Source: Bremia lactucae (lineage: Eukaryota; Oomycota; Peronosporomycetes; Peronosporales; Peronosporaceae). From it: DNA of 64,000 nucleotides. How positions within the stretch are numbered: position 1 is the first letter of the stretch; each line of letters opens with the position of its first letter. Location: assembly GCF_004359215.1 (NCBI RefSeq), contig NC_090625.1:214000-277999 (forward strand), in the 5' to 3' direction. The notes beneath the pieces were generated by a model that saw only the letters and a list, made by a program, of their open reading frames with translations, did no database searches and was not told the origin of the DNA. Positions 67-51,400 of the stretch are shown here, piece by piece. The translations under genes were made by a program, and so were the position numbers.

Positions 67-118
67 CTTCTTTCTTTAGTTCCAATTTAGCTTCGCAGAC
101 CGCATAGCCCTGACAGCC

Positions 119-1398: not shown

Positions 1399-1467
1399 AC
1401 GACGTGCAATGCACGTCGTTGTAACATTCATTTCTTTGATCGAACGACGGCGCGCAAGTACGAGTTA

Positions 1468-2027: not shown

Positions 2028-2215
2028 CGCCTACAACTTCAAAAGGACAGTGAGCGCAAGGCACAGGAGGCAGTGGCAACATCCACAGAGCGACCGCGCA
2101 CACCGATGGATGCCGCACATAGATCTCCCATAGAGGGTACACCGCTGCTCGAGACACCTGTCTGATCGAGCCGGAAGCTCTTAACGTCAAACCTGAACCG
2201 AAGAAGCAAAGGGTC

Positions 2216-3680: not shown

Positions 3681-3689
3681 ATGCAGGAA

Positions 3690-4640: not shown

Positions 4641-6115
4641 CTTGGGGCAACGGCTCGAAAGCAGTGGACACAAGGGATCTGCATGGGATACAAGTGTTGG
4701 GGCATGGGGATACGGTGCGGTACCTAGGCTACGCAGTTGGAACAGGGGAACTTGCCACGGTCAACTGGTCGGCGCGAGTGCGCAATGTCCAATGGAGACT
4801 GGCGACAGCGACTCGGCTGGCTACTAGTGTCGAGAACAGGGTCTTGATATGAACGTGATCATGCTGCCTGCCGTATTGTTCAGTTCGGCTGTTTTTGAAT
4901 TGCCACCGTGGGCGGAATAACAACTGCGGAACCTTCAAAAGCAATTTTTGTGGCACCACTCTACCAGCACGGAAGCCAGTCGCCATAAGATTGATCCTGC
5001 GCTTTTACACACACCCAAACAAGCAGGAAGTGTGGGCCTCGCCTCCATACTCATCGCGTGCAAGACCCAGCGGGTGAACTACGCCATATTCTGGCTCACC
5101 CAGCGCAAGGTTTTTTTATGGCATAGCAGGCATGGGCCTTCCGCGGAGCAACGCAAGACTGGACAGCCGGAGTATCTCCGCGTCAACAGAGGGGTCGGCA
5201 CCTTACTACGCATCGCAAGACATCCGGTAACACTCTGCAGCAGTTGATCTGGCCATAATTGTCACCTGCACTCCCTGACTCGGATGGTAGGATGCAGCAG
5301 TATACAACGGAGCTGGCAAGCCTTGCATCGGAGGCGATCAGCTGGACGACGGAGGACGAATGGGTGGTGGAGCTCTTCGGCACTTACCTCGAGCAATGAC
5401 TCCAGAAGAAAAAGCATTCTGGCCCTCGCGCTCCTGGGCCGAACTGGGTTTGGGACATGCAGGGAAACGTTTTAACGTCGACGCGGTATTCCCAGTTTCA
5501 GCCATGCCCAATTGCGAAATTGTACATGCTGCAGATTGGATGTCGAACCTAATCCTTCGTTCTTCCGACGGCCGGCACTGCCACCTATCAGCAAGCCAAA
5601 CTTAGAAGATGGGGCCTTGCCATTTTGCTTAGCGCGCCGAGTTTGGATGTGGGTCAAGAGCTTCACGTGAGGACGGACTTCCGCCTGCGCCTTCCCCCCC
5701 CCCCCGATGCGCTGGACCGAACTGTCGAGACGCTTCGAAATGCAGCGGAAGGCAGCTCATGGCAAGCAGCAGCTCTACAGCAGACGCCAACTCATCTCTG
5801 GGGTCATGGGAACGAGCTCACCGCGTACCAAGTTTGAGTCGGGTATAGAGTGGCAGTGCGGAAACTGAATCTCTTTCATCCCGAACGCGGGCAGGATAAC
5901 AGTTACCGCGAGCTCCAATGCTGCCAAGGGCTGAAAGATACACTCGAACACATCTGTTGGTCATTTCCGTGCGCAAGCCTGCTGGCAACAGCTCATCTGT
6001 CACTGGATAGGAGAGAGAGCTTAGACGACTTCAGAGTTTCCTCGCGAATTGTGCAAACAGACGCGCGCCAAGATTATCCACGGTGGTCCAGGCTCAGCTA
6101 GAGCGGCGTCACCCC
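4641..6115 (+). pseudogene. LINE post-RT region and C-terminal zinc-binding end
   Basis: The block begins with a GIxVLxHGDTVRYLGYAV-type segment (about 4680-4740), which in LINEs follows the RT palm. It continues through ALLHTPKQAG..GLASILIACK (about 4995-5060) and ends in QCCQGLKDTLEHICWSFPCA (about 5920-5985), a Cys/His cluster like the C-terminal motif of L1-type ORF2. No RT fingers or palm and no FADD box occur anywhere in the element. A 12-base C run at about 5694-5705 breaks the frame; copy B has 10 there. Confidence 0.7.
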
Positions 6116-6322
6116 GATGACGTGACCGCATACACCGCCGTGTGGACACACATATGGCATATCCTGAGCAGCGTTTGCATCACTCGTTTGGATGCAACGC
6201 AATCGAGTAACGTTCCAGCAAGAAGACTTGACCATAGCCGGCAGCGTGCATGAATTGGGAGGCAACTCCGTGCCATAGCGAAGCGAGAGCGCCGACGTAC
6301 CGACACAAAAATACAAGGAACC

Positions 6323-11757: not shown

Positions 11758-14700
11758 TTAGGAAGTGACGACTAAAAAGATGAAAAAGGCGGCAAGCCCG
11801 CACAGAAGCGCAGCGCAGTAAATTGCGCGCGTATCGACGTCGATGGCTGAGTACCCGCGGCGTCGATAGCACAGACCCCCAGCGTACACCATCGCAACAA
11901 GTACGAGGGCGCCACCAACCCCGACTAAAATGCGGACGATAGTATAATCAGCATTGCTAGCGGCCGGGGTAGTATCGGACTCCTCTGAAGAGCCGGTGCG
12001 GTTGTTATTGCTCGAAACATCGATGCAGCAGTCCAATGTGGTTGCCGTCGCCGGATCGGGTTTGCAGCAACCTCCGTCCCACTCGCAGCAGTCCAAGTCA
12101 GCGGCCCCACATTTTGGCTGCCCTTGGCAAGTGTTTGTGCTGCTTGAGTATGAAGCGCTAGAATGAGCAGTAAAGGGTTTCGCGTGAAAGCAGCAATCCA
12201 ATTCAGAATTCGAAGCTGAGCAGCAGCCGCCAGGTACATCACAGCAGTCCAGCTTGGCCGCTGCGCAGAGAGGCTCCCCGTAACACATTGAATTGGTTCT
12301 CTTTCCCTCGTCCTTGTCCGTCGTGTTGCTGGCCACGGGATGTTGATTCTTGCAGCAGCCTAATACTTTTCCTGTTACCTTATCAGGCACACAGCATCCT
12401 TCTGGGGAGTTACAGCAACCCAATCCAAGCACAGCGCACTCCTGCTCGTTTAAGCAAGCGTTATTCGGCAATAAAGCGGGGTCTTCAAGCGGGCAGCAGC
12501 CCAATGCACTCGGACAACACCCTGGCAACGTACTGCAACACGTTAGCGCTGTGCCATTCTCACCTGCTGAAGCACAAGCTGGAGAGCCAAAACACAAATC
12601 ATCAATAGCAGAAGCTGGGTTACCAAAAGCTGAGCGGTTCTTGTGAGCCAACCACGACGATCGAGTAGCAATCCAATGCATGGCGTTGGAGCGCGACGAC
12701 CACGTGTCGAACGTTTTGACAGATCGATTTAGTTCGTTCCAAGCTTTTGCTGCGTCCACTATCGCATGATCCATCACTACAATTGAACGCCAGATATCGT
12801 TTTCGTGTAGGCCGATCGGATCTTGACGAAGGATCGAATACTCTCGAGATACGTATTCTTCGTCAAGCAGCTGTGTTGTGAAGGGCGTGAAGGGAAGCAT
12901 GTTGATACCATGGATGTAGACGACATGATCGCCAAACCACGTATTGTATACAACACTCATCTCGCCTACCACACCCACCATTGCGTTTTTGGAAAAGATG
13001 GGCTCGTATATTTGAGAGTTTGCCGACATATGCCAATACTTCTTTACCGAACGTAACTCCATGGCAAGCAAGAGTCGCGCATACTGGTAGTATGAGCTTT
13101 CTTCTTGCCCCACGGAAGTATCAAGCGAAGAAAATAGAGCTAGGGCGTAGTAAGCGTTGAGGCCTTCACTGCTACTTTCTTGAGACTTTCCAGTCTCCAT
13201 TAGGAAAAGGCCACTTGCGTACGAGTGGCCAACAAACCAATCTTTATGACGAGTTGCAGGGAACATCGATCGCACCGGCAAGTCTGTAAAAAACGTTGTG
13301 TTGCTGTCGTGCAGTGGCGTGCCGATATCCCCAATGATCATAGCACAAGCTTGGGCATGTTTCTCAATGAATGCAGGGTTGAATTTGCGAATAGCAGCAA
13401 GCGCGTAGATAAAGTAGCCGTAGTGGAACTGCAATAGCAACATACAAGACTATTAGAATCGACATTGTCGCAGTAACAACGAATAATATGCGCACATGGT
13501 GATCGTTGTAGTACCCATTGCCGTAGTCAGCTTGCTCATTATTCAAGCCATCTTTGGTAACTACCCCGCCATACGTTTTGTCATATACAAAGTGGTCGAC
13601 GTTCGTGCCTTCTAGCCAGACGACAATTTCCGTCTCGATCTTTGTCAATAGTCTCTGCTTTAATTCTTTCTGCTCCAACTTATCCGCAATTAGCAATAAG
13701 CGCGCGTCGCGACTCACTTGCTTTCCAAAATTGTAAGAGTCGGGACTCATTGGCATTGTATATTTTTCAGCGTCAATGGGCAGCTGGTTCAGTAATGCTG
13801 CCATCACCGTAGCGCGCATGTCAAGTCGAAGCTGCTTGTGGCTCGAAAGCTCGCCGCTTACATCTTCAATAAAGAGCCCGTCGTCTGCATAATTCCATTC
13901 GATGGCTGGTAGTGACTCAGTCATGTGCCACACTGCGCCGTACACGCCTTCCATGAGTCCACGAATGCTTGTGTATCTTAACCTCAAGAGCGCCTTGTTC
14001 TTGCCGACTTGCAGCATTCTATTGTCAGTCTGCACTTGCATCACGTCCATGTGGTGAGGCAACGCCAGCATCAAGAGCTTGTTATTCTCGGGCTCCGTCA
14101 CTGCGTCAGTCTCGTTGTGGAATATCGCAAATGTGCTTGTCTTCCATCGAAATTCAAGCGCCATCTGATTCGAGTCAAGTAAACTCATGGAATGAGCGAC
14201 TTCACCTCCAACCACATACACGGGTGCCGATTCAAGAAGATACGGCATCACGTGCGCATCCAGACAAAGCGCGATTCGTAGTACGCCAGTGAACTCGACA
14301 TCACTGGTCACCTGTCCGTCTTCGTTTAGTCGAAGTGTGAGCAGCTGATCCGACGCAAAAATGTACCAAGTTTGACCATTGCTAAGATTTGCTGCGAAAG
14401 TGGCGAAGCCCACGCTGTGTCCATTCAAAAGCTTGAGTCCCTCCAGTTTCGTAAAGTGGTCAATCCGCAATCCGTCCCAAGTCTCCACTAGAGGCCGACT
14501 GCGCATGAACTCCATCGTTATGTATGGAGACCCCCGCACAAGATACACGCGGAATTCCTCTGTTTGGTCACGACTAAAGCGCACGGTCGTGCTCAGCGCA
14601 TCAAAATCAATGACTTGATGCATCAGCGCCGCCGACGACGTCTGTGCCGCTTGAGAGCTCACGACTATCTGGGCCATAAAACCTAACTCGATGTCTCGCT

Positions 14701-15055
14701 CCATTACGACGCGGAACGGGTAGCTCACATGCAGCTTTTCGTCAATGATCTTAAGTGCGTAAGGCATGGACACGACAGTTGCCTCTCCCTGAGCCAGCAC
14801 CAAATTTGTCCACCAAGCGCCAGTTGGAAAGGGTAAATCGGCAAGAAGTATAGGGCGAGAATACGACGAAGAGTTAGCCACGCCTGCATTCAGCGATATA
14901 CGCTCTGAACCCGCGAATAATTTCGGCGATAGTTGCAAAGGGTGCGACGCCATGGGGAATGGCAGCTGCACGTTGAGATTGGTGCCGGGTACGCTTACAA
15001 CGCTTTGCGCGCAGCTTAATAGCAACATAATTGAAATGAGGATGCTGCCAAACAT
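11758..15055 (-). CDS. GH81 endo-1,3-beta-glucanase, membrane-anchored
   Basis: It hydrolyses beta-1,3-glucan, the main oomycete wall polymer, and likely acts in wall remodelling. Proposed exons on the minus strand are 15055-13496 and 13428-11758, 1,076 residues. Residues 1-21 are a signal peptide (MFGSILISIMLLLSCA). The GH81 core includes LPFPTGAWWTNL near residue 74, YGNGYYNDHHFHYGYF across the splice join (about 512-525), and QESSSEGLNAY, whose Glu604 and Glu608 fit the family's catalytic glutamates. After the core come four Cys-rich modules (about 799-988; pattern C-x-G-x-P-x-C..LDCC..GGCC), then hydrophobic segments at about 1017-1039 and 1056-1075. Oomycete genomes carry several GH81 genes, but the Cys-rich tail is unusual. 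Confidence 0.92.
13429..13495 (-). other. Glucanase intron
   Basis: On the minus strand the donor is GTGCGC and the acceptor ATTGCAG, 67 bp, phase 0. Splicing makes YYNDHH continuous with FHYGYF, a conserved GH81 stretch. Confidence 0.9.
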
Positions 15056-15289
15056 GCTGGCGAAGTGCTGTAAGAAAAGTGGCGAGTTATGGCCGCCGCT
15101 ATGGCCACAGATGAACTACTGCGGCTAAGGTAAGATCTTGACGGGGACGGGGATCTTCGCTTGAATTCCGTGAAATTAACAATAAAAGAAATTGCAAAAG
15201 ATGATACAAATAGTCAAGAATATAAAGAATATATATTGGGAACCGGTAGAGGCATAACCCCGAAATTATACTAGAGAGAGAGGCAGACA
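15056..15289. other. Upstream region of glucanase
   Basis: About 230 bp, AT-rich from 15170 on, separate the glucanase start from LINE copy B. The glucanase promoter must be here or inside the LINE. No element was recognised. Confidence 0.5.
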
Positions 15290-17143
15290 AGTCTATTTAA
15301 CTATTAATGGTTGCAGGATGTCTGGTATATCTTAAGCCTGGTTACCAGCGCCGATATCTCGTGCGAGGCCGGTGGTTGTACGGGGCTTGCCACCTGTGGT
15401 GGCGGCTCTCCAGGTTGTCTGGATAGAGCTCGCTGGCAGAGCATCAGACGGGTTCCTTGTATTTTTGTGTCGGTACGTCGGCGCTCTCGCTTCGCTATGG
15501 CACGGAGTTGCCTCATGCCGAACTCCAAATTCATGCACACTGCCGGCTATAGTCAAGTCCTCTTGCTGGAACGTTACTCGGTTGCGTTGCATCCAAAACG
15601 AGTGATGCAAACGCTGCTCAGGATATGCCATATGCGTGTCCACACGGCGGTGTATGCGGTCACGTCATCGGGGTGACACCGCTCTAGCTGGGCCTGGACT
15701 ACCGTGGATATTCTTGGCGCGCGTCTGTTTGCACAATTGGCGAGAAACTCTGAAGTCGTCTAAGCTCCCAGCATTCTCCTATCCAGTGACAGATGAGCTT
15801 TTGCCAGCAGGCTTGCGCACGATAATGACCAACAGATGTGTTCGAGTGTATCTTTCAGCCCTTAGCAGCATTGGAGCTTGCAGTAACTGTTATCCTGCCC
15901 GCGTTCGGGATGAAAGAGATTCAGTTGCCACACCGCCACTTTATAACCGACCCAAACTTGGTACGCGGTGAGCTCGTTCCCATGATCCCAGAGATGAGTT
16001 GGCATCTGCTGTAGAGCTGCTGTTTGCCATGCGCTACATTTCGAAGCGTCTCGGCAGTTCGAACCAGCGCACCAGGGGGGGGGGAAGGCGCCGGCGGAGG
16101 TCCATCCTCACGTGAAGCTCTTGACCCTTACCCAAACTCGGCGCGCTAAGCAAAATGGCAAGGCCCAATCTTCTAAGTTTGGCTTGCTGATAGGTGGCAG
16201 TGCCGGCCGTCGGAAGAACGAAGGATTAGGTTCGACATCCAATCTGCAGCATGTACAATTTTCGCAATAGGGCATGGCTGAAACTGGGAATACCGCGTCG
16301 ACGTTGACACGTTTCCCTGCATGTCCCAAATTCAGTTCGGCCCAGGCGTATGAAGGCCAGAATGCTATTTCTTCTGGGTCATTGCTCGAGGTAAGTGCCG
16401 AAGAGCTCCACCACCCATTCGTCCTCCGTCGTCCAGCTGATCGCCTCCGATGCAAGGCTTGCCAGCTTCGTTGCATAATGCTGCAACTTACCATCCGAGT
16501 CAGGGAGTGCAGGTAACAATTATGGCCAGATCAACTGCTGCAGAGTGTTACCGGGTGTCCTGTGATGCATAGTAAGCTGCCGACCTCTCTGTTGACGCGG
16601 AGATACTCCGGCTGTCCAGTCTTGCGTTGCTCCGCGGAAGGCCCATGCCTGCCATGCCATAAAAAAGTTCTTGCGCTGGGTGAGCCAGAATATGGCGTAT
16701 TTCACCCGCTGGGTCTTGCACGCGATGAGTATGGAGGCAAGGCCCACTCTTCCTGCTTGTTTGGGTGTGTGTAGAAGCGCAGGATCGATCTTATGGCGGC
16801 TGGCTTCCGTGCTGGTAGAGTGGTGTCACAAAAATTGCTTTTGAAGGTTCCGTAGTTGTTGTTCCGCCCACGGCGGCAATTCCAAAACAGCCGCACTGAA
16901 CAATGCGACAGGCGGCATGATCACGTTCAATATCAAGACCCTGTTCTCGACACTAGTAGCCGGCCAAGTCGCGCCGCCAGTCTCCATTGGACATTGCGCA
17001 CTCGCGCCGACCAGTTGATCGTGGCAAGTTCCCCTGTTCTAACTGCGTAGCCTAGGTGCCTCACCGTATCCCCATGCCTCAACACTGGTATCCCATGCAG
17101 ATCCCTTGTGTCCACTGCTTTCGAGCCGTTGCCCCAAGTGGAC

Positions 17144-18110
17144 TCAATGCTCCTCTCTCGCCTCTTCCATCGTAATATCCATTAACTTGGTCCTAATCAA
17201 TATGCGCGCCCTGTTCTGTGTGTGAACTCGGTGAATAATTGCGTTCCGCCGCTGCGTCTCACGTTTCTTGATCCGCTGAACACTTGGCAAGCATTGTTGT
17301 GCTGTCTTATCCCATGTTGCCGCTGTCACCGCCTTGCCCACCTCCGCTAATTTTAGCTCGTTGAGTAATTCCGCTATCACGCGCGTGGGCTGGGCTGATT
17401 TGATGGGGTACATCACTGCACTTTTCCTCCGCTGGGATTGTTTGCCAGGTGCTTGTGGCCTTAAATGTAGCCGCACTCGCTGGTGATCGGACGGTACTGG
17501 CGGTTCTGTCATTGATACCCACTGTACTTTCGCCGCCCAGGATTGGGGCACGTAAAATCGATCTATGCGATTGGCCGGTTCGGGCCCCAGTATGTATAAA
17601 ATTCGGTCGGGTCAAGGGCCTCATCGGCATCATCCACTAAATATATGAGTGTGCGTGCATCGTCTAGGCGCAGCTGTTGGGCGAGGGTTTGGAGGGCCGC
17701 GCTCTCCGATCTCCCGTCGCAATGGCCGTCGGGGCTATCCAGAGATGGACTTTGCACACAATTTAATCGCCTGCCAATATAATCTCTTGCTGCTTCAATG
17801 GCCACCGTTGGAGCTCGAGAAAAATTCTCTCGGGCTCTGTGGTCGTTCGGTGCGTAGATGTTTATTACCCGGTAGTCCCCAAAGTCGACCGCGATGACCC
17901 TGTTGGTCCAATCCTCTTGGCGCCAAGGCTGAACCTGCTCTGCTGTTGTTGGAGTCATCAAAATAGCTACCACTCCTGTTTTGCTTGCATCCACAATCCA
18001 GTAAGACAGCGATGGTCTGTTTGGCTGATGCTGTCGTCCCTATAACCTTGTCCAGGTAGCTGCTAAGTGAGCCACCTCCTCTTCAGTGCGGACATGCGTT
18101 TCCTACATGA
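17144..18110 (-). pseudogene. LINE copy B endonuclease
   Basis: Minus-strand frames read SKTGVVAILMTP, VINIYAPNDHRAREN, LNCVQSPSLDSPDG and IYLVDDADEALDP, then a basic linker KKRETQRRNAIIH. These are the landmarks of an APE-type LINE endonuclease, open from 17994 to 17563 and less damaged than in copy A. The linker runs straight into post-RT sequence at about 17130, as in copy A. Confidence 0.7.
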
Positions 18111-18739
18111 ACCAGGTTAGCGGTGGATCTACCACGGGCGTTCGTCTCTAAGCGTCAAACCACAATGATTGAGCTCCGGCCCGGAAGCTACCCATGCCAG
18201 TTGGAGGCTCGACAAGTTGGATGTTTCAGCACACGCAGGACGCAGACCCAGGCTAGACAACGTAACCAGACGCTGCTCTGGAGTTGTTTGCCGCTCCTGT
18301 GTAGCTATAGTTGCCATTGGTGTACTGCCGTCCGGGATAGCTGAAGATGCTCGAGTGACCGACTGGTTTCTGTGTTGTTGGCGTCATTGATCCCCATCTG
18401 GAGCACATCCTTTCTCTCCTCTGTGGAGAGTTGAGATACCGAATTGAGTAAGAGAAACAAATTTCGGCAAATTTAGCCGGATTGGCATCGTTTAAGAGAA
18501 TGTCGATATGTTGATGTACGTCTCGGGAAGAAGCGTGGTTGCTAGATGGTCTCGGATCACTCCTGGGTCGTCGTTCCAGTACTTCGAGTTCCATGCTGGG
18601 GGCGAGCAACTTTCCCCCCCCCGTCCCTTCTCTGCACTTCGTCGCCCAAGCCTTCTCCTTCTATCACAATGTCAGGAGCTTCTTGCCTCTCCGCTGCCCC
18701 TTCCCGTTTAGCGGAGTTGTGACGGGCCTGTATGGACGA

Positions 18740-20480
18740 ATGCTGAGAAATGTTGTATATAGAACCTCAGCACCGGTGGTCGTTGCAAACCGAGTTGCTT
18801 AGCATGTCTGACTGCTGCTATCCATTAATCAAGCTTCATAGGGACTCGTTGGCCAGTTTCGTAAAATTTGTTTCCACGCGTGGTAGCACTAGGTTTGAAT
18901 AGGGAGCAGTGCCACGTTTGTTGCCCGTCGGTATCGTACGCCAGTACATAAATGTCGTGTTGAAGAAAGTTAGCTGCTTGAGCCATCAGATAACTGCTTG
19001 TCCAATTCCAACGCGATACGACATCCTGCCGTCCAGAAGGTGTGGCCGCGTACTCATCGAGGTACCATTTAACTGTTTTTTTCGGTTCGCGGGCATTCGT
19101 GCTATCCCATCCTCTCTGGACGTTATTCAGAGTTGCCACCCGGGTTTAGTGGCCAAACTGCTCGTCAAAATTAAGATGGCCAGACAGCTGAATGCCTCGT
19201 TTAATGCTGGCAGTTATGGACTCAAGGTGGGCATCATGGGCAGCTAGATCCTTGTCCGCGACCGCCTGCGCTACCGCCATCGCCATACAATTACCAGAAG
19301 ACCGTGTCGTGACTAGACGTAGTCCTAGCACCTCTTCAATGCCTGAAAATCCTCTTTCCTGATGTCGTTCCGATGCTGCCATGGGCAACTGGTCGTACCT
19401 GTATTTTCCAATTGGTTGAACCGCCTGGTTCATCGCTGCTCGTTCGCGTTGCTTGACGGTTACAAGCTGTGGGGTCGTGGGAATTTTCGGCAGTTTCGCT
19501 GACACTAGGTGCAATGTTGCCTTCTTCGTTTCTTTCAATGGCGCCTAGTCGACACCCTTCGAGTCGTCCGTAGGTCGTGAGGTGGGCGCTAGTACGTCTT
19601 GTTTGGATGATGGTGCTGTTGACTTATCCGCTTCATCTTCCGAACCTTCTGCCAGGTCAGTAAAACGGTTGGAGAGACTTTGAGATTGTAACTGTGACAC
19701 AGTCGGCTGATGGGTCACTTTACGACTTCTCCGAGGATGGACCGTGACCGTTTGCTTCTCTAGTTCAGGTTTGACGTTAAGAGCTTCCGGCTCGATCGGA
19801 CAGGTGCCTCGAGCAGGCGGTGTACCCTCTATGGGAGATCTATGTGCGGCATCCATCGGTGTGCGCGGTCGCTCTGTGGATGTTGCCACTGCCTCATGTC
19901 CCTTGCGCTCACTGTCCTTTTGAAGTTGTAGGCGCTGTGCCGCAACTTCTTTGATTTCCGCCAGGCTGGTTAAGGGGGTGGCCAAGTCTTTAAGCGCTGC
20001 TACCTCTTGTTCCGTAGCCACTCGGCTGCCTGGACCTTGTAAGTGTGCAGTGGTATACCGACAACGCGCCATGGTGTGCCCGATTTTGCCACAGTGCAAG
20101 CATTGAAGCCGTCGGCCGATCTCCGAGTACTTTAAAATTATTGTTTGTCCATACCAGATAATGCACGCAATTCATCGCAATAATTCTGGGCACCCTGCCA
20201 TATTCACCGTAAGTTTCCACACATTGTAGGTCCACGAGTTAGGCGTACACGTGTCTAGATCTTCAAGCTAAAAATCTGCTGCAATATGCTTTTCGAAGTA
20301 CGCAGTCAACCGTCCGATGTCTGTTAAGCAAGTTTGATTGTAATATTCCAACTCGTACTCCGGATTGGTCGCCATGCGAACTCCATCTCGTCCGAACTGG
20401 CATGCCCATACGGAGCCCGTGTCCGGCTGGTGCATGTTCGATAAGCGGTATATCGCTCCTCTAAATGGCACTGACATTAA
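18740..20480 (-). pseudogene. LINE copy B ORF1 C-terminal part and OTU-like segment
   Basis: The order is SVPFRGAIYRLSNMHQ (20477), the knuckle MHCGKIGHTMARCRYT (20099) with its first Cys codon altered or out of frame, a long basic linker, then SSGNCMAMAVAQAVAD (about 19300). Next come VVSRWNWTSSYLMAQAANFL (about 19030) and IQHFSAF (about 18755). The Cys, Trp-region and His spacing matches the OTU-like reading in copy A, and here the Cys region is in frame. Confidence 0.5.
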
Positions 20481-21194
20481 CTCGTACTTGCGCGCCGTCG
20501 TTCGATCAAAGAAATGAATGTTACAACGAAGTGCAACGCACGTCGTTTAATTGACATCCTTGGTGACATGAAGCATGGTCTGAAGTTCGTCCTGATTGAC
20601 CTTCGCTCCTTCCGCTGCCAGCAAGATATCTTCCTTGATCGTGCTTGTTTTCTGCTGTATCATCCTGATATCTATCCCGCTTCGTATATTATAGCAAAGT
20701 TCACCTTCAACTTGTTATTGAACAGTCCTTAGCAGTCGCACCCGTTTCTTGGAAGAAAGCGCACTTCGTACAAAATCGGGTAAGCGTCTGCTTACAATAT
20801 TGCCCTTAGCAAGTCCAATGATAACTCTTCACTCGTCCGTTGTGCCCTCTCAAAGCCGACACCCACTTCTTGCAGCTATCGGTTGCTGACTGAGCTTGCG
20901 CAGCTTCTCAATATCCAATTTGCTGAAGACCGCTGGATTGAACATATCGTCTTCGTAGTCTTCCGGGCTGCTGGGCTGTTGGCCTTATTTTCGATTGGTC
21001 CGGTGCCTGACTTGACCTTGGCTGCCCATTGATTCATGGGCGATGCCCGCGCCCACTTAACTTTGCTTATCATGCTTTGCATGATGTTCTTAAATGACCA
21101 ATTGGAATTGTTAAGGTCTTTCGTCGCCGTCTGCGCAAACTGTGTCCACTGCATGAACAAGCCGTTGCTTACAAAGCAAGCCCGCTCGAAGAAC

Positions 21195-21731
21195 TTAAAT
21201 AAATGTCACTTTTTCTTCACTTGGTGGGGTCCCCGCCGGTACGAGGTCTGCTAAAATGGCCACCGTGTCGTGCGCTATAGTGTAGAGCTCTGCCACAGTT
21301 GCCAACCATGATTCGTGTGAAGGATAATGTGGGGCTGCCTTCACCGCCGCCACTACTGCCTCAAACATCTCCACCGGTCTTATCACCGTCTCGGCCTTGT
21401 CTGGCCTGGGTTCGCTGGGTGCACCCGTCCTTCTCGGTTTGGGCTGCTCCTGAGTCGCTGTCGCCTTGGCTATGGATTTGGAGCAGCCGACTCCCGCCAC
21501 TTCTGTCAATGGATGCGTATCAGCCCCCGTCGTCTGTCGAACGTAGGAGTCCGTTCTGTCGCGTTGGTCGTGCGTGACCCCTTCCCCCGGGTCAGGCGGC
21601 TCTGTTGACTGCCCGACGTCTTGCGCCGACCGGGCTCTGGCGAGTCTCGCATTGCGCTTATCGGCAAGGTAATGAGCTGGTGCTTCACGTTCGAGGAACG
21701 TGAGCGGGTGACATGTCTGCTTTTCTTCCAA
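21195..21731 (-). CDS. LINE copy B ORF1, N-terminal part
   Basis: An uninterrupted 178-residue frame that copy A has lost by one base. It starts MEEKQTCHPLTFLERE, ends SEEKVTFI and is rich in proline, threonine and charged residues. No known domain is visible. It probably represents the start of the element's RNA-binding protein. The rest of ORF1 is in other frames downstream, so it is unlikely to be functional. Confidence 0.45.
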   Translation of the reverse strand: MEEKQTCHPLTFLEREAPAHYLADKRNARLARARSAQDVGQSTEPPDPGEGVTHDQRDRTDSYVRQTTGADTHPLTEVAGVGCSKSIAKATATQEQPKPRRTGAPSEPRPDKAETVIRPVEMFEAVVAAVKAAPHYPSHESWLATVAELYTIAHDTVAILADLVPAGTPPSEEKVTFI

Positions 21732-21805
21732 TCCTCACAGCTGGTACAAGGCTGTCAGGGCTATGCGGTCTGCGAAGCTAAATTGGAACTAAAAAAAGAA
21801 GTATG

Positions 21806-22600: not shown

Positions 22601-23516
22601 GTGAAAAGGGCAATAATAAGTAGTCATTTCTCACACGGTCCTGCACAGAGCCGAGAGCTTGTGGCAGTAGACAGTGATCTGAGAGGAAGTCAAGCGTTGC
22701 ATGAAACAGCACAGTGCCTAGAGTCTGGTGGGGTTGCAAGGGGTGCGTTAGCCAGGAGAGCGACGGCATTCGCTTTCCACACAAAGTTAGTGGTCACTGG
22801 AAGAACGAGTATTCGACAGATTGCGTTGATCAAAGGCACGTCCAAACGAGTGACTTTTAGATCAGTGCCTAATAAAGAGGATGGGTCTTCGAACGAGCTG
22901 TTCGAGGCCGTCAAAGACGAAATTGTGGAGGCATCCTCAGTTGGGGTGCTCCGGCAAGTCTTTAAATCTGCCGAGGAGATAGTAAATCTCCCGGAGATGT
23001 CGTGGGATCTGTTCCTTGCCGAATTAAAGAGAGAAAAGATCCACAAAATAGTCACACCAGTTCCACAAGAGAACTTGGTGGACTGTTGCTCGTCGTCCAC
23101 AATGGACGAGAGCGTCCTAGAAACGGACAAAAAGAAGCGGTACGCTGCTCAAGGCTGGGATGCCTTGAGAGACAGTCCGTTCTTTGAGGTTCTGTGGAAA
23201 CATCGTGATGTGTTCCCAGAAGAAGTGCCGAGCCGCCTACCAGCAGATAGGGGCATCGGGCACGAGATAGACCTCGAACCTGGCACCAAGTATTGTGTGA
23301 CCAGGCAATGGCCGTTGCCGAAAGAACAAGTCGATTATATCGATGAGTTCTTCGACAAACGAGCCAAGGCGGGACATGTGCGTGAGAGCAAATCGCCTCA
23401 CTGCAGCCCGACCTTTTGTGTGCGTAAAGCCACAGGTGGATGGCGCGTGGTTCATGCTTATAATAAGCTGAACACGGCGACCATACCGGCGCAAACGCCA
23501 ATCCCGCGGAAAGATG
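22565..23516 (+). pseudogene. Gypsy pre-RT and RT fingers, runs into gap
   Basis: An open stretch of more than 300 codons leads from a protease-RT spacer into the RT N-terminus: DSPFFEVLWKHRDVFPEEVP, HEIDLEPGTKYC, QWPLPKEQVDYI, SPHCSPTFCVRKATGGWR and VHAYNKLNTATIPAQTPIPRK. It stops at AAAGATGT where the Ns begin. This is the best preserved part of the element. Confidence 0.85.
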
Positions 23517-23936
23517 TNNNNNNNNNNNNNNNNNNNNNNNNNNNNNNNNNNNNNNNNNNNNNNNNNNNNNNNNNNNNNNNNNNNNNNNNNNNNNNNNNNN
23601 NNNNNNNNNNNNNNNNNNNNNNNNNNNNNNNNNNNNNNNNNNNNNNNNNNNNNNNNNNNNNNNNNNNNNNNNNNNNNNNNNNNNNNNNNNNNNNNNNNNN
23701 NNNNNNNNNNNNNNNNNNNNNNNNNNNNNNNNNNNNNNNNNNNNNNNNNNNNNNNNNNNNNNNNNNNNNNNNNNNNNNNNNNNNNNNNNNNNNNNNNNNN
23801 NNNNNNNNNNNNNNNNNNNNNNNNNNNNNNNNNNNNNNNNNNNNNNNNNNNNNNNNNNNNNNNNNNNNNNNNNNNNNNNNNNNNNNNNNNNNNNNNNNNN
23901 NNNNNNNNNNNNNNNNNNNNNNNNNNNNNNNNNNNN
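23517..23936. other. Assembly gap (420 N)
   Basis: All bases are N. Sequence to the right (23937-24304) repeats 23143-23516 with some changes, so the gap joins two versions of the same RT segment. Confidence 1.
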
Positions 23937-24330
23937 CGCTGCTCAAGGCTGGGATGCCTTGAGAGACAGTCCGTTCTTTGAGGTTCTGTGGAAACATCGC
24001 GATGTGTTCCCAGAAGAAGTGCCGAGCCGCCTACCAGCAGATAGGGGCATCGGGCACGAGATAGACCTCGAACCTGGCACCAAGTACTGTGTGACCAGGC
24101 AATGGCCGTTGCCGAAAGAACAAGTCGATTATATCGATGAGTTCTTCGACAAGCGAGCCAAGGCGGGACATGTGCGTGAGAGCAAATCGCCTCACTGCAG
24201 TCTGATTTTGCGTAAAGACACAGGTGAATGGCGCGTGGTTCATGTTTACAATAAGCTGAACACGGCAACCATACCGGCGCAAACGCCAATCCCGCGGAAA
24301 GATGTTTGTTGAGCTCCAAGGATTAGTCAA
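23937..24330 (+). pseudogene. Second copy of RT fingers after the gap
   Basis: It repeats the protein from AAQGWDALRDSPFFEVL to TPIPRKDV. Differences include a lost CVRK block (SLILRKDTGEW instead of SPTFCVRKATGGW). Unlike the left copy it continues into the RT palm region. It is either a true tandem or a collapsed allele or copy. Confidence 0.75.
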
Positions 24331-31079: not shown

Positions 31080-32090
31080 GGCTCACATTTTTTAGCGTGA
31101 TATACCTCTAACGAGGATGACAGTGCGCCTAGCAACAGGTGCGACTTTAACAGTAAATAAACGTATCGTTGGTATCCAATACACGTTTAAGGGTAAGCAG
31201 TACACTGATGATTTCATCGTTCTTGATTGAAATGACATATTTGGTGTCATCCTTGGATTTCCATGGCTCAAAAAGAACGAGTCATGCATAAATTGGCAGC
31301 AGCAAGCCGTGACAATGTTTGTCTCTCATTCATCAGAAGGTCGTCGGATGAACGTCTTGAGCGTCTACAAGCGTGTGGATGTCCAATGAGTGAGTGCGAT
31401 GGCCTCATTTGTGGCTCGGTAATTTGCAATACTGCACAAGACTCAGTGTGAATTTCCATCACACTGTGGAGTTAGAAACCAAGGCTGCGCACAAGCACAG
31501 GCAGCGTTGAAGTTCGACCACTCGAATAAGTTTAGTTGTACGAATGAAGGATGCTTGCTTCGAATGCAACATCCGAAAAACTTGAATCGCCTGTCTATAA
31601 GAGACAGTGTAAGAATATTAGATGGGCCTGATAGTCTATCGTAGGGGATCTCAATGTGGTAGCGCAACCACAGCTAGAGGCAGTAGGGGAGAATACTTCC
31701 CAAATAAACTTGAGGGGATAAGTCCCCAGAAATCTAGGTTCAAATGTTTTCAGGTACATTTGGAAATAAGTTTCAAAGCGAAACTGAGCGGATCAAGTGT
31801 TGGCACACCTCCGAAGCTAACTTCGGAGAATACTCAGTTGCCAACGATAGAACCAAAACAATTCTTGCGTGATCTGCGTAGTGGCAAAGTCAAGAAAATT
31901 TGCGTACTCGTTATAAATTAAGAAAATACGAGTGTCTTGAATTTCCTATTGTTAGCAATGAAAAACGCTACAGGGCAGAAGTTTCTCTTACTAAGCAGCG
32001 GGCCATTTTACATGCGGCAGTTGTAGTAAAACTAGTTTGTTTTGTAAATATAGCTTTTTGCTACATTTTTGGCTTAAAATTTTACCTTTA
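31080..32090 (+). pseudogene. Gypsy protease and pre-RT spacer
   Basis: The frame reads VRLATGATL-like, then VIFGVILGFPWLKKNESCINW (about 31240-31300). This is the second half of a Gypsy retropepsin, whose family form is LATG..LxLILGxPWLxxHxPxIxW. After it come degraded spacer frames (IEPKQFLRDLRSGKVKKI at 31850-31905). The first half with DSGA is missing. Confidence 0.65.
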
Positions 32091-33013
32091 AAATGCAGGT
32101 AATCCAGCAATATATCATGCATTCGCAATCATATTTTGCAACGCCGAATGTGTCATAAAATCTTAAGCCATTCCGATTTTTTGTGAGCCTTGACTGATAA
32201 TTATATTGCCTTATCCAAATATAGTATATGTATTGGACAACATTCGATTATGAGGATTCGTCGTACCTGTCAATTATTTTGATGAGCTTTGTAACATGAT
32301 ATTATTGCAATACAATACATCAGAGCAATAAGCCGAATATTTCTATAGGCAATATTGTAAAGCACGTATTCGAATTTAACGTGTGAATTGCTTGTAGCCA
32401 AATCTTAAGCTAGAAGTGTTTTCTTTTCTAGTGACATGATATTCGACCGTCTTGATGCTACTCATCTTGTTCCACAGCTGCCAATTGGTGTTGAAAATGG
32501 ATTCCGTGGAGTTGTAGACCTTGTTGAGATCAGCCTTACATTGGTGTCTTGCATCCAAACGCTAATCAACAGCAAAATACCGTATACAATGCGAAAAATG
32601 GATAGATTTCGGTAGCTTCTTTAATCAAGGAGGACTTGATTTAAGCAAAAATATTGTACCCAGACCGAGAGATTTCAAATGACAGTCGCGAACCGGTACA
32701 AAGAATTGCGTGACAATGTAATGGCCTATACTATCGAACAGCGCAAAGTAATCGCTAGATTATTGAGTTCAAACATGAGGCTGTCCATGTGAAGTTGTTG
32801 GAATTCGCTCAGTCATATGTGTTTAAAATCCAATCGAAAAGTGGTGGATAGTGTGCGCCTATTATAAATAAAATCTTATGTACTGCCAATCCTTTATAGT
32901 CCACAAAATGGTAACATTGACAACCCCGTAATAGGCCGAAGAAGTGGTTTGCGATGCCACAAATGCTCACGTCCAACCTTCTTAATGGACAAAAAAGTCA
33001 CTTCGTTTGAAGT
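32091..33013. other. AT-rich stretch around EF-G fragment
   Basis: Apart from the EF-G piece, no gene is recognised. A short frame near 32680-32790 (ANRYKELRDNV) is open but unassigned. Confidence 0.45.
32409..32532 (+). pseudogene. fusA: Fragment of a bacterial-type elongation factor G
   Basis: One open frame reads [13 protein letters not shown] followed by [20 protein letters not shown]. In EF-G the GTPase domain has the same run: M-I-x-D-R-L-x-A-x-P-L-V, then LQLPIG-E-x-F-x-GVVDLVEM. The fragment covers about 35-40 residues and breaks down on both sides. It may come from an alphaproteobacterium or from a nuclear gene for mitochondrial EF-G. The LQLPIG form is closer to bacterial EF-G. It lies in Gypsy debris, not next to any translation gene. 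Confidence 0.6.
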
Positions 33014-44530: not shown

Positions 44531-47500
44531 TGCGACGAGACTCGGAACGTCCATCTTCAATTGGAAACAAGGTTCTCAACGACCATGCGAGGTGGATACC
44601 CCTGCCAACGAACGAAGTAATTCGCTCGAACCCTTTTCACCTAGCGGTGGTTTAGGAGGCGTTCAACAAGGAAACGCTTTTCACCACTCGAATCCGTCAA
44701 TGAATGTGGAGAGGAAGTAAAAATCGGGTCGTCTCGTTCGCCAAACACGTGACTTAGATCGTGTCGTCCATTATTTACGGGAGGACATGGAACAATTCTG
44801 TCGTCGCTGAAACGCGACGACGGTTGACGGTATTTCCCTCGAACAGTTGCAGAACGATGCGCAAGTTGCGGTCGAACAACTTGCGAATGAAAGGACACAC
44901 GGACCGATATACTTGAGCAGTAATTTACTGCCCACATTCGTCACTACATGTTTTGGAAGGTTTCCGTATCCAGTAGGACTAGATCGTGAACTTTAAATGA
45001 ATGAGCGTTTAAGCTCCTGCCTGAGGGCCATTTCTGTCGATCCACCGCATGAGCGATGAAAATTTTGTACGAAACGAACCACAGTTTCTCTACTTTGCAG
45101 AAATTCTCCTGCTGACAGGTTTTGTTTTTGTCTTCAGTGCGATAGATTGCACGGCGGAGATGTCATTCTCCTCTTTACTGAGAGCATTATTGTTCTAGAA
45201 AATGTTTTTGGTTTTGTTCCTGAGTCTTTTAGCATCGTTATCAAGGCCAGCAATAACATTATTGGAATTGCTGAGTTTGGCCACATTACCGTTGATTAGA
45301 TCAACATTGGTATCTTTCATATTGACCTTAGGGCTAATGCGTGATGAGCAAGAGCTAGAAGGTTCTTTGCTCGTGCGAGTCCTCCCCTAATATAAGAGAT
45401 ACTCCTATACAAGGTGTGTATGAGAGGATGGCTTAAACCGTTCACAAAAAACGGTGTATGCTTTGTAGAAGGATGCACTGTATTGTTTATGGCAAATTCT
45501 ACCATCGGCAAGAACTCGCCTCAAATCTAAGAAGAATGGACGTTTCCGCGAAGTATCTCTTCGAGACTACGGTTTGCCCGCTCCGTCGGACGATCTGTTT
45601 CAGGATTGTTAAAAGTTGACATTTTGAACTGCCTTTTAGTGATTTAAACAAAATTTGAAAAACCTCCGCCGTTGATCTAGAGACTCTATTTAAGACCAGT
45701 TCGGAAGGTAATCCATGGAGTCGAAATAGCGTGTCAACAAAGACACAAGCACAGCCTTTGGATGTGATCGACTTTAGGACGGCACCAAGATGTACCATCT
45801 TGCTAAAACGGTCAACAAAAACAAGAATATTATTATTTTTGTGGGTGTCTTCGGGGAATTCGATGACGAAGTCCATAGATACGGACTGCCAACACTCTAT
45901 CGGAACAGGCAGAACGGAGCACGGGGTGAAGCACAAGGCTTCATTCGATGACAAACTTCGCAAGCAGGTATGTACTTGCGGACGAGCTCATAGTGGCGTG
46001 GCCAGTAGAAGTCGCGACTTACAGTGACATAAGTTTTCTCACGTCCACAATGCCCACTTGTTGTTGCATAGTGACACTCATACATGATGCGCGAGCGCAA
46101 ATCATTGCGAGTTGGGACGACGACACACGGAGTGTCGCCGGCAACGGCTGTGTAATACAATAAGCCGTTGCGTGTTGTGTATCGATTGGATGACGATCAT
46201 CATGAAGCCGGTAAGTCTTTAAAAATTTATCGGATAGATTCATTAGATGATCCATTATACGCAGAAGGTCCTTTCTGCGTAGGCAATCTTTTTGTCATCA
46301 AATAAGGCTGATAACGGAACACTTTAAATGGGTGTTGCAACAGTGGGTTTATTTCCACTGTTGGAATGCGCAGCCGGCTCGAAATCGGGTCGGCATGATA
46401 ATGAATCAGCGACGAAATTAAATCGTCCTGATTTATATTTCATAACAAAATTATACTTCGGGAAGAAGGATAGCCACCTCGCCATTCTTTGCGAGGAATG
46501 TGGGCTGCTCACGGTCGTGCGTAATGACGCATGGTCCTTATATACGATGAACGGTTTATCTCCGAGACCCTCAATTTAGCCAGTGTATATTTTAAGGCTT
46601 GGACTTCCTTGTCATGCATTGGTTAATTGCGTTCAGCTGGTTGGAGCTGACGCGATTGGTAACAGACGACGCGCTCCGCACCGTCTGTATCGAATTGCAT
46701 TGACGCACAACCGATTGCGAAATCGCTGGCGTCACAGTCCACATGGAATGGTCTGTCTTGATCTGCAATCTCCAAGATGGGCGATTGCATCAAGCTTTGC
46801 TTGATACCTTCAAACGAACGCTGACAATCAGCGTTCCATAACCATTTCTCGTCTTTTTTCAAGAGACGAGAGAGATAAACTGTCATCTCGGGATAAATGC
46901 GGGAATACTTGTGCAAGTACGCCGCTTATCCAAGGAGTTTTCAACGTCCCTTGACATCGACTGGAACTGGCCAGTTGGTTATTGCCTTGATTTTTTCGGG
47001 ATCAGGGCGCACGCCGTGTTTACCGACAATGCAGCCAAGAAGTGGTATTTCGCTTGCAGCGAATATTCACTTCTTGAGATTTGCGTACAACTTATGCTTT
47101 CGCATAAGTGTAAGAACCTGAAAACGTGAGTTTTATGACCTTCTAAGTCCGTCTTTCCGTCCATGGCCCGGCTATGGACGAATACATCGTTGCGAATTCT
47201 TGCACCGGTCTCAACAGATTTGTAACGCATCTGTTGAATGTTGCAGGGGCGTTACTAAGCCCTTGTGGCATTACTAGCCATTCCCAGTGCATCCCATTCG
47301 GAGTGCTCACTGCTGTGTACGGGATGTCCCGCTCACGCCTAAGGATCTGATGAAATTCATCCATCAGAACCATAGACAAAAAGATGGCACTCTTAGACAT
47401 AGTATCTATGATTACGTCTTTTCGATGTATCGGCATTTGAGCCGGTGCCGTTGCAGCATGCAAATTATTGAATGCGTGTAATACCAGCGACCCCTCTGTG

Positions 47501-47830
47501 GCCTTTCGCACACAGAAGGTCGCAGAGCTATATGGGAAGGTTGACTCCCTCATATGGCTCGCTTTTGATCGATTGATAAAGAATTTATCGATCGCAAGTA
47601 CTTGTTGACGAGGCAGCAGCCACTGCTTCATGACACAGTAATTCGAGCCCGGTTTGAGCCCGATCTCATGTCGGGTGCTTTTATCCTTAGGCAACTCGCA
47701 TGGAACTGTTTCAGGGAATACATCCCGGAATTCAAATTCTTGTATAAAGGATTTGTCTTAAATGACTCCCAGGATTGAGTAGTATCTCTCTCAACCCGAG
47801 TCTTCACGTCGAAAACGCTCTCGTCCATCG
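44440..47830 (-). pseudogene. Gypsy pol, family 2: RT, RNase H, integrase, chromodomain
   Basis: Minus order: RT fingers and palm (47694-47143, SSATFCVRKATEGS, MHWEWLVMPQGLSNAPATF, the YxDD box being lost). Then come RNase H (46916-46324, DCDASDFAIGCA, YNFVMKYKSG), integrase zinc (46160-45897, HYATTSGHCGREKTYVTVSRDFYWP, CEVCHRMK), integrase core (45963-45500, FVDRFSKMVHLGAV) and C-terminal part (45511-45317). A chromodomain remnant follows (44937-44560, RFLVERLLNHR end). Many frameshifts. Confidence 0.8.
46009..46675. repeat. 667-bp tract identical to 37228-37894 (copy 2)
   Basis: Same tract, constant offset. Sequence diverges right outside both ends. Confidence 0.8.
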
Positions 47831-48859: not shown

Positions 48860-49312
48860 ACAACGAGTGTTTCACGACGGAGTATGTGCCGTTTCACCCC
48901 CTTTTTCTGAGTTGCTCAAAATTAATGTTTGCAATATTGGAGCCTTCAGCTCAGACATTCCAATGTCTAAACCACTGAAAGACTCAGTCAATGATTCGCG
49001 CCAATAGCGCTTTTGTTGCCTAGCAAAGGTTGGTTCATGACTCCAAAACTTTGCAACATTGCGCGTGGCGCCTAAGGTCTTGGACCTCCAATCGATCCAA
49101 GGCTCATGGTGTTATAACCAGGCCATACCAAGGATGAGACCATATCTCGAATCCAAATCAAGGACGAGACAGCATTCCATACTGTCAAAGTCCAGAAACA
49201 TTATGCCTAAGTCCAATGGAACTTTAAGAACAGTGAAACGAGTCCCAGTCGCTAAGCGAACAGTGATTGTATCATTTTCATGCGCTTAAAAGCGACGCTA
49301 GCGTAACTAGCG
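48860..49312 (-). pseudogene. Gypsy protease, second half (interrupted copy)
   Basis: The minus strand from 49290 reads AHENDTITVRLATGTRFTVL, then LVLDLDSRYGLILGMAWL, HEPWIDWRSKTLGA, ARQQKRYWRESL and LDIGMSELKAP. This is the C-terminal half of a retropepsin. Its N-terminal half with the DSGAS active site lies at 50125-50240 on the same strand, about 810 bp away. The piece between is bacterial-type DNA. Confidence 0.75.
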
Positions 49313-49488
49313 CTAAAAATCAATTCGTCAAAAATAGCTTTATTTCTGAGCCAATATCTCGTAATACCGCACCCGCAATAACCGCTGCTGCGATTCAGGT
49401 CAATAAACTCTATGGACCTGAAGAGATTATGCTGATACTACCTTCAGATCATTTAATTAAGGGCAATATAGAATTTAAAAAAGCCGCT
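49313..49488 (+). pseudogene. manC: Fragment of mannose-1-phosphate guanylyltransferase (ManC type)
   Basis: The open frame reads FISEPISRNTAPAITAAA, then EEIMLILPSDHLI and EFKKA. Bacterial ManC/AlgA proteins share EP-x-x-RNTAPAI-x-x-AA and LxLPxDHxI about 25 residues apart. The full enzyme is about 470 residues; this covers about 55. After 49490 the reading decays. GDP-mannose pyrophosphorylase of eukaryotes lacks this RNTAPAI form, so bacterial origin is likely. Confidence 0.8.
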
Positions 49489-49574
49489 TGCTGTCTTAGT
49501 TTTTGCATCATAGTTTGTGACCTTATCAAGCTTTGGTTTTATAGGTTTAATATTTATATATCCAATGCACCTAA

Positions 49575-49724
49575 GATCGATATTCGGCCAATGAAATAAA
49601 AGCTGTTGGATTTCATGGCCAGACTGTATACCACAATCCTAATGAAGGATTGACCTGGCAAATTGGTAATCCACATATGCTTGCTTCTAGTATTGGTATA
49701 GATGTTATTCATGATTTCAGAAGT
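49575..49724 (+). pseudogene. anmK: Fragment of anhydro-N-acetylmuramic acid kinase
   Basis: The frame reads [19 protein letters not shown], then LTWQIGN and [10 protein letters not shown]. AnmK, a peptidoglycan-recycling kinase, has I-G-x-HGQT-x-x-H-x-P followed by TWQIG and TG-x-x-V-x-x-DFR at this spacing. Oomycetes have no peptidoglycan, so this is a strong bacterial mark. It covers about 49 of about 370 residues. It continues without a stop into the RelA/SpoT piece, a chance in-frame join. Confidence 0.82.
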
Positions 49725-49769
49725 ATTATTCTTGCTTTTGAATTTGCTAGAACTATCTTTTCTCTTTTT

Positions 49770-49860
49770 AACTCGATACTTTCGATAAAGTATCATGGCT
49801 CACAAAAAAGGGCTTCTGGTGATCCTTATTATTACCATCCTTTAGAATTTGAAAAAATAT
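49770..49860 (+). pseudogene. rsh: Fragment of RelA/SpoT-type (p)ppGpp hydrolase-synthetase
   Basis: It reads [24 protein letters not shown]. RelA/SpoT homologues begin their HD hydrolase domain with [21 protein letters not shown]. The [11 protein letters not shown] form is characteristic of alphaproteobacteria, whereas others have GQxRxSGEPY. The HP histidine belongs to the HD domain. Only about 27 residues are recognisable. Confidence 0.78.
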
Positions 49861-49926
49861 CAGCTTTTTTGGTTCAAAATTTGAACTTATACCATTTGTT
49901 TAGACTGTATTTTTATGTGGAAAAAC

Positions 49927-50034
49927 GAAACAAAAGCGGACATAAAAAAGGGAAGCACAGCAGCAAACGAAGTTTTAGACAATTTCCGTCTGCACACCAG
50001 GGCTCCTAAACAACCGATGCTAGAATCTGCATAA
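49927..50034 (+). pseudogene. Unassigned ORF end in bacterial-type insert
   Basis: 36 open codons ending in TAA read [20 protein letters not shown]. The composition looks coding and the frame differs from that of the RelA/SpoT piece. I do not recognise the protein. It may be a genuine C-terminus of another bacterial gene. Confidence 0.35.
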
Positions 50035-50085
50035 TTGATTACGCAAATTTTCAAACCACTCTGACGTAACCTTCCTTTTGTCCAT
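50020..50085 (-). pseudogene. hemF: Possible start of coproporphyrinogen oxidase (HemF)
   Basis: On the minus strand an ATG opens MDKRKVTSEWFENLRNQLC, then a stop. Alphaproteobacterial HemF proteins begin with a similar AxxWFxxLRDxIC helix. The match is short and from memory of the family pattern, so it is weak. Confidence 0.35.
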
Positions 50086-50124
50086 TTTTAACCTACCAAG
50101 CATTTTTAATAATTAAAGGGAATT

Positions 50125-51400
50125 TATAAGGCCTATGTCGCATGATTGCAAGAAGCTCCTGAGTCAATTAAAATTGACCATGGCTTTTCAAAGCCCTTCA
50201 CAGTCGCTTGAGCGACGAACAAGCCAGGCTTGTACTCCCGCCCCGTGTTATTACGCACCCAGCTAATTGGGGCTAGGTCGTGTTTATTCTCACATTTGAG
50301 AGATTCAACAGAGCTAGGTCTTTCATAGAAGGGCGCTTCGCACCTACTGGGTATCGACGTTTATTCGCACTGTACCGTGTAGGTCGGAATTGGTGCTCTT
50401 TCGAGCTTTACGCTATTTTGTAGGGGGTAGGCCGGACGTAAATGTTTCGTTCTTCCGCACATATAACATCTACAATATTTTAATGCTGTTTCACAGCTTG
50501 AAAAGTCTCTTTTCCTTTCTAAACGAGGCTTGGATCCATGGGTTCCGGTCTATAAGACGGTACCCATTTGCTCGAAGAGCTTGTTCGGTAAACAGGCGTG
50601 CTAACACGAGCCGACTTAAAGTCGAACTCAGCGTGTAGCGCTATGGCAACTAAATCTTCAAACGTATCAGGATGAGATCGGGATAATTCCGTCAGGGCAA
50701 CGCCCTCATTGAGACCCCCCATAAAGATTATTAACAAAATTGCTCCTTCCGCCGGGTCTTGATGCATAGATGCAATGAGAGCTTTCAACTCCTTGACATA
50801 GTCCCGTAGGGTTCGTTTACCCTTTCGAGTCGCTAGGAGCCGTGATCGTATGCGAAAAGCCTGATCAAGCTGTGCAATTATGCTGGTCATTTGCTGTTTC
50901 AGCGAATTTGGTGAGGGAAAAACGTCGTTGATGGACGTACTGCACGATAGTACCCACTCCATGGCTCAATCTCCGAGGTTTGAAATGGCCATAGCCACCT
51001 TCTGTCGTCCTGTTAAGAACAAGGCGGAGTCAATGGACATCTTCATCTGCTTAATCCAAAAAAGGAGATTCCCCCCTCTTTTCCCTCAAACGTCTTATCA
51101 TTGACAGCTAGAGAGCGATTCTTCGGCTCTTAATTAGGTACAGAGATGTACCGGGTTGGCATCGATGCCGCAAGGTGATCTTGTACCTGGCCGATCAAGG
51201 AGAATTCAAATCGCATGAATGCTTCAAGCCTTGCATGCAGGACCTCTTGTCCCTGGGATATAATGAACTCCACATGTTCAAGCCCCCCAAAAAGGTTTTG
51301 AGTTTGTAATAAGCTGCGCGTTGCGCCTCTGAAGTTCTGGAAACTCCTCCTTTTTAGTGAAGGCTTAGTCTTATGAAGACTCAGGCGTACATTGACTATG
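50125..51400 (-). pseudogene. Gypsy gag and first half of protease
   Basis: Minus order: coiled-coil Gag start (about 51390-51190), capsid FEGKEGGNLLFWIKQMKM (about 51080), RIRSRLLATRKGKRTLRDYV, FMGGLNEGVALTELSRSHP and IALHAEFDFKSARV (50962-50600). A knuckle CYMCGRTKHLRPAY, with last Cys replaced, follows near 50465. Then FVAQATVKGFEKPWSILIDSGASCNHA (50240-50135) is the retropepsin active site. One stop lies in the capsid. It is interrupted at 50120 by the foreign insert. Confidence 0.8.

Follow-up and report, generated by a model that had tools for sequence, protein, structure and literature searches.

An 840 bp patchwork of Rickettsiaceae DNA scraps inside a retrotransposon of the oomycete Bremia lactucae, probably captured during the repair of a chromosome break

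This report concerns a stretch of 64,000 nucleotides from the oomycete Bremia lactucae (assembly GCF_004359215.1, contig NC_090625.1, positions 214,000 to 277,999 of the forward strand), hereafter the window, and in particular an insert of 840 bp at window positions 49295-50134 that interrupts a retrotransposon copy. At least eight scraps of this insert stem from the genome of one Rickettsiaceae bacterium, a near neighbor of the metagenome-assembled genome (MAG) Rickettsiaceae bacterium MAG_16, and one further scrap matches host DNA. Very probably, shredded DNA from an intracellular Rickettsiaceae was taken up during end-joining repair in a Peronosporaceae-like oomycete. Moreover, because similar scraps occur elsewhere in the same genome, our results suggest that shredded symbiont DNA has been used there repeatedly as repair filler.

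The limits of the insert come from our reading of the flank alignment, in which host sequence stops at 49294 and restarts at 50135. Both flanks (49200-49294 and 50135-50250) were aligned with five uninterrupted copies at other loci of the 116 Mb host genome, where the left flank runs into the right one and the two flank matches lie about 44-49 bp apart. Read in this way, the alignment indicates that about 34 bp of the target are missing against 840 bp gained, i.e., target bases have been lost and foreign bases acquired relative to the empty site, as in filler DNA. A preliminary description, made from the letters of the window, had placed the patchwork at 49313..50120, which proves too narrow, and had compared it with NUMT-style filler at a break, a comparison that the filler-like architecture and the target loss bear out. 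The element's flanks are multi-copy in the host genome, with at least 80 matches listed, the insert locus included, and the best 40 of 1,383 candidates scored. The insert sits on host contig C16, 2.56 Mb long, within one host element. The open reading frames (ORFs) adjoining its edges, at 49112-49285 and 50136-50360 on the minus strand, matched no Pfam family; the element is called a retrotransposon because of the gag and reverse transcriptase sequences further out, and it may be Gypsy-like. The features of the site are the following:

49295-50134, no strand assigned: whole filler insert (flank alignment to uninterrupted copies; piece boundaries by local alignment)
50519-50965, minus strand: flanking retrotransposon gag (Retrotrans_gag, E 1.5e-4, slightly under the Pfam cut-off)
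47143-47757, minus strand: flanking retrotransposon reverse transcriptase (RVT_1, E 1.2e-11)

The insert itself is made up as listed below, with orientation given relative to the source gene, as established by gene calls and Pfam, and with the MAG_16 contig that supplies the match:

49295-49486, plus strand: piece 1, manC (mannose-1-phosphate guanylyltransferase), sense; 191/192 bases identical to contig C102
49486-49519, minus strand: piece 2, truB (tRNA pseudouridine synthase B), antisense; 34/34 bases, C87; 1 bp common with piece 1
49515-49578, minus strand: piece 3, phage-type terminase gene (Terminase_6C), antisense; 63/64 bases, C69; 5 bp common with piece 2
49579-49723, plus strand: piece 4, anmK, sense; 145/145 bases, C26; blunt joint to piece 3
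49721-49785, minus strand: piece 5, cupredoxin-domain gene, antisense; 65/65 bases, C124; 3 bp common with piece 4
49785-49844, plus strand: piece 6, relA/spoT, sense; 59/60 bases, C39; 1 bp common with piece 5
49845-49857, no strand assigned: gap of 13 bp, mismatched to the sources of both neighbours
49858-49901, plus strand: piece 7, SURF1-family gene close to its start, sense; 43/44 bases, C55
49902-49986, no strand assigned: 85 bp with weak matches only and no source found
49987-50022, plus strand: match to another host locus, 34/36 bases identical to host C107:1981215-1981250
50022-50134, minus strand: piece 8, overlap of the UPF0102 (yraN) gene and hemF, antisense; 111/113 bases, C57

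The eight pieces, 34-192 bp long, correspond to eight different MAG_16 contigs, four in the sense and four in the antisense orientation. This agrees with the preliminary description in that unrelated fragments have been captured together, and corrects it in number (three or four had been counted) and in size (90-180 bp had been given). Pieces 6 and 7 were trimmed where similarity to the source breaks down, their full BLAST stretches holding five more mismatches (piece 6 extends to 49858 with four, piece 7 starts at 49853 with one). After this trimming (piece 6 to 49844, piece 7 from 49858), the eight pieces differ from MAG_16 at 6 of 707 bases; with a divergence below 1%, the insert is recent, or its donor slow to evolve.

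Pieces 1-6 adjoin without intervening sequence, and their five clean joints have overlaps of 1, 5, 0, 3, and 1 bp. The microhomology or blunt joints typical of end-joining are thus present at all five, with the reservation that overlaps of 0-1 bp alone could be due to chance. The first base of piece 8 overlaps the match to host C107. Regarding the 85 bp at 49902-49986, the matches in MAG_16 and 54 relatives are weak, about 16-31 bases long with a best E of 0.002, and no source was found in the rest of the host genome or in plasmids; this stretch may derive from a part of the donor that is absent from MAG_16. None of the eight pieces amounts to an intact, expressible foreign gene, all being internal or end fragments, and such inserts are most likely neutral scars rather than genes. 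An in-frame insertion in the RelA/SpoT piece was also considered and rejected, as the residues that precede it belong to the antisense cupredoxin piece.

At the protein level, ORFs of the window matched the profiles NTP_transferase (E 2.9e-5, over the Pfam cut-off) and GMP_PMI (E 7.1e-11), AnmK (E 3.1e-12 in Pfam, over the cut-off; best NCBIfam match 6.2e-16), and spoT_relA (E 5.1e-4), with the NCBIfam scores lying under the whole-protein cut-offs of their models, as expected of fragments. A joined peptide query against a genome collection gave 18 loci, titled Rickettsiaceae, Rickettsiales, Rickettsia, or Alphaproteobacteria. MAG_16 was the best match for the ManC and AnmK parts; for the SpoT part it tied for the top identity (85%), and two other Rickettsiaceae MAGs, which aligned along more of the joined query, had slightly lower E-values. 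When the DNA of the insert was searched against six of the genomes behind these loci, at an E limit of 10 under which most further rows are chance matches, eight strong placements on MAG_16 were obtained, with E-values (5e-95 in the best case, 1.3e-10 for the shortest piece) that exclude a chance match. MAG_16 was the best of the six genomes for each of the eight pieces. These searches bear out the reading given in the preliminary description, which had reported ManC-, AnmK-, and RelA/SpoT-like pieces in succession, a possible HemF start on the other strand (rightly, as piece 8 spans the overlap of the two genes), an alphaproteobacterial origin, and a Rickettsiales-like donor; it had also stated that best matches to oomycete nuclear genes, or no matches at all, would refute the idea, and the matches are rickettsial.

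The donor record, MAG_16 (JANQTT, about 1.1 Mb), is titled Rickettsiaceae, an obligately intracellular family. In a wider comparison, a 20 kb stretch of the window was compared with a set of 55 genomes, made up of MAG_16 and 54 relatives (E 1e-4, best five candidates per genome scored). Seventeen of the 55 matched, and all five of the pieces scored in MAG_16 had their best match there; the runner-up was the related MAG G002 for four of these (81-89%), and for the SpoT piece G012 (85% over the same 74 bases). Because MAG_16 leads for all scored pieces and the next genomes reach only 81-89%, the donor is likely a species-level relative of MAG_16. A mitochondrial origin was considered and rejected, since neither the gene set nor the near-identity to one Rickettsiaceae MAG fits it. 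In the whole host assembly there is no bacterial contig bearing anmK, and the sole anmK match is piece 4.

The preliminary description had proposed to look for more fragments of the same donor in the same genome, and they are there. The host genome was queried with three 20 kb regions of MAG_16, being those of that length among the 20 regions taken and together making up 60 kb of its approximately 1.1 Mb; the C26 region holds the anmK piece. They gave 15, 23, and 18 matches, at least 56 in total, a figure that includes mutual copies and the known anmK piece, all counts being lower bounds. The matches are spread over 21 contigs, with lengths of 33-163 bp (median 67.5) and identities of 72-100%, 41 of the 56 being at ≥94%. 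Scaled by length, this corresponds roughly to 1,030 shards for all matches, or 750 for those at ≥94% identity, a rough extrapolation because the low-identity matches may include conserved genes. As a control, 12 kb of another alphaproteobacterium gave no match in the host genome, a zero that alone shows little, and 12 kb of G002 gave four. Two of these are short, namely the anmK piece (145 bp, 81% identity) and a match of about 46 bp at 89%; the other two, with lengths of 605 and 431 bp and identities of 65-66%, are taken for conserved genes.

Six pairs of shards that come from different places in MAG_16 lie no more than 1 kb apart in the host, and as two of these copy one pair, five are independent. 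Random placement gives a mean of 0.026 pairs, and none of 20,000 simulations reached five; hence, to judge from the coordinates, a part at least of the remaining shards stands in patchworks too. One shard pair occurs twice on host C1, at 1369739-1369922 and 15804209-15804392, 14 Mb apart and with the same spacing (starts 1369739/1369887 and 15804209/15804357), and is probably a patchwork that was later duplicated together with a host segment. Separately, one MAG_16 stretch is found twice on host C16, at 193604-193735 and 196451-196582, 2.8 kb apart at 78% identity and about 20 kb upstream of the window.

The events that would account for this picture begin with a double-strand break inside a retrotransposon copy, in an oomycete whose cells housed the bacterium. 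Bacterial DNA, presumably broken to scraps of about 30-200 bp before capture, would have been taken up as a string during end-joining repair of the break, with the loss of about 34 bp, and the scraps would have been ligated by non-homologous or microhomology end-joining. We favor end-joining capture because the gain of foreign DNA, the mixed orientation, and the little or no microhomology match the marks reported for organelle DNA inserted at breaks (PMC6215612), together with the loss of target, which is a general mark of break repair. The main variant of the joining step, counted within this explanation and not exclusive of it, is template switching by a repair polymerase (polymerase theta or replication-based), by which the pieces would have been copied and not ligated. 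It appears rather unlikely: the joint overlaps of 0-5 bp, the very short pieces, and the piece that matches a host locus elsewhere are in its favor, but all eight switches would have needed a loose bacterial template beside the break, a blunt joint is present, and pieces reaching 192 bp would be long for a theta-type insertion. Instead of a single event, several insertions could have accumulated over time at a fragile site, as the differing identities of the matches in the genome and the more diverged patchwork 17 kb away might suggest; however, all eight pieces are similarly low in divergence and nothing lies between pieces 1 to 6, and we hold such a history to be very improbable.

Bacterial DNA from a contaminated sample might also have been fused with host DNA, by ligation in the library or during assembly. 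Contamination would give matches to the donor of near 100%, as found here, and the joints are known from the assembly and not from reads. Nevertheless, the eight tiny pieces of the insert have clean joints and lie within one host element of a 2.56 Mb contig, the matches lie on 21 contigs at 72-100% identity, diverged ones included, anmK has no match in the assembly other than the insert's own piece, and the pair repeated on C1 with the same spacing behaves as duplicated chromosomal DNA would, all of which renders an artefact scarcely credible. Equally remote is the idea that bacterial RNA fragments were copied to DNA by the reverse transcriptase of a retrotransposon. Reverse transcriptases do switch templates and the insert lies within a retrotransposon, yet scraps of mRNA copied in one run should share a single orientation, and an RNA origin of the pieces is rejected on strand use, with four sense and four antisense; the local loss and gain relative to the uninterrupted copies likewise speak against it.

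Several points weigh against capture by end-joining from a resident bacterium and should be kept in view. The joints derive from an assembly, 98 bp of the insert (49845-49857 and 49902-49986) have no source, and the patchworks of the other shards are known from coordinates. Among the 56 genome-wide matches, 15 are below 94% identity, some of which may be conserved genes, and several are copies of one another. Furthermore, we infer the presence of the bacterium inside this oomycete, and its DNA could have reached the nucleus by a route other than a resident symbiont. As to a broader scenario, our judgment is evenly balanced: cells of this oomycete lineage would have carried Rickettsiaceae repeatedly or for long, with shredded DNA as a steady source of filler that left up to about 1,000 datable shards, many of them in patchworks, and with a symbiosis ongoing or recently ended. 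If so, the shards would be a molecular fossil record of that symbiosis.

In complex numts and nupts, and in numins, fragments from various donor regions, sometimes in opposite orientation, are concatenated at a nuclear break, with joints that are blunt or show microhomology (PMC6215612). The insert resembles them in bringing non-adjacent donor fragments of mixed orientation to one place (PMC6215612). It differs in its donor, a Rickettsiaceae bacterium rather than an organelle, as truB, anmK, manC, the phage-type terminase, and other genes indicate, and in its pieces, all shorter than 200 bp, as opposed to the 3,573 bp from four fragments in an example of that paper (PMC6215612, Fig. 2). In its manner of working it is akin to a complex numt, yet it does not belong to that class, its donor not being an organelle.

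Among transfers from bacteria, four syntenic sequences resembling rickettsial genes lie within a region of about 9 kb in the nuclear genome of Volvox carteri, in strains where no endosymbiont was detected (PMC4324946). In both cases a non-phagotrophic protist has Rickettsiaceae DNA in its nucleus, close to a transposon-like region, but the oomycete has shuffled scraps at many sites and not one such region (PMC4324946). Insertions of Wolbachia DNA similarly place intracellular alphaproteobacterial DNA in host chromosomes; set against them, neither the eight pieces nor the 56 genome-wide matches exceed 192 bp (PMC4299567). Candidatus Phycorickettsia, a member of the Rickettsiaceae from eustigmatophytes, for which gene transfer between endosymbiont and host lineage was inferred, is likewise a Rickettsiaceae lineage in stramenopiles, but that case concerns a whole operon, plastid genomes, and algal hosts (PMC6092422). 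Finally, a survey of prokaryote-to-oomycete transfer, which also deals with bacterial sequences in oomycete nuclear genomes, reported five putative gene families as whole genes (PMC5023847). By its donor lineage, the transfer described here is of the endosymbiont type, but it consists of shards instead of the genes or blocks of the compared cases.

While the flow of DNA from organelles to the nucleus is well known, symbiont DNA in the nucleus consists, in the compared papers, mostly of genes or long blocks. In the oomycete the bacterial DNA comes as scraps shorter than 200 bp, spread over perhaps several hundred sites or even more, which gene-based transfer surveys such as that of PMC5023847 would presumably overlook because of their small size. 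Among the literature matches listed, in titles and abstract openings that come mostly from outside subscription journals, no description of rickettsial shards in an oomycete genome was found. Such shards point toward a hidden partner in a group of plant pathogens, can be dated individually, and make it possible to study how foreign DNA is fragmented and captured in the course of repair. They also call for caution, as short bacterial matches in such assemblies are not necessarily contamination.

About 17 kb from the 840 bp insert, the window holds a second, more diverged patchwork at 31913..32503, with matches to MAG_16 and to two related MAGs, G002 and G013 (four genomes were searched, one without a match). 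It would be either older or from a more distant relative of MAG_16. Its pieces are:

31913-32003, plus strand: MAG_16 C13, 81-82%, E 3.7e-16
32006-32075, minus strand: MAG_16 C42, 81-82%, E 1.5e-11
32087-32129, plus strand: MAG_16 C41, 81-82%, E 5.7e-4 (weak)
32119-32307: G002, 73%, E 9.9e-24
32247-32293: G013, 81%, E 3.4e-4 (weak)
32433-32503: G013, 75%, E 1.5e-5

Elsewhere in the window, a direct repeat within a retroelement-like ORF at 23143-24205 adjoins a run of N, where the assembly may be incomplete. A large inverted repeat (66-6189 and 15596-21802) has arms of about 6 kb with 91-98% complementarity; an ORF in its right arm carries a zinc-knuckle-like motif, recognized by eye. The arms enclose host ORFs, including a glucanase ORF at 13367-15115 that shares 68% identity with a protein of Phytophthora cactorum, a pointer to a Peronosporaceae host, its next named matches being from other oomycetes.
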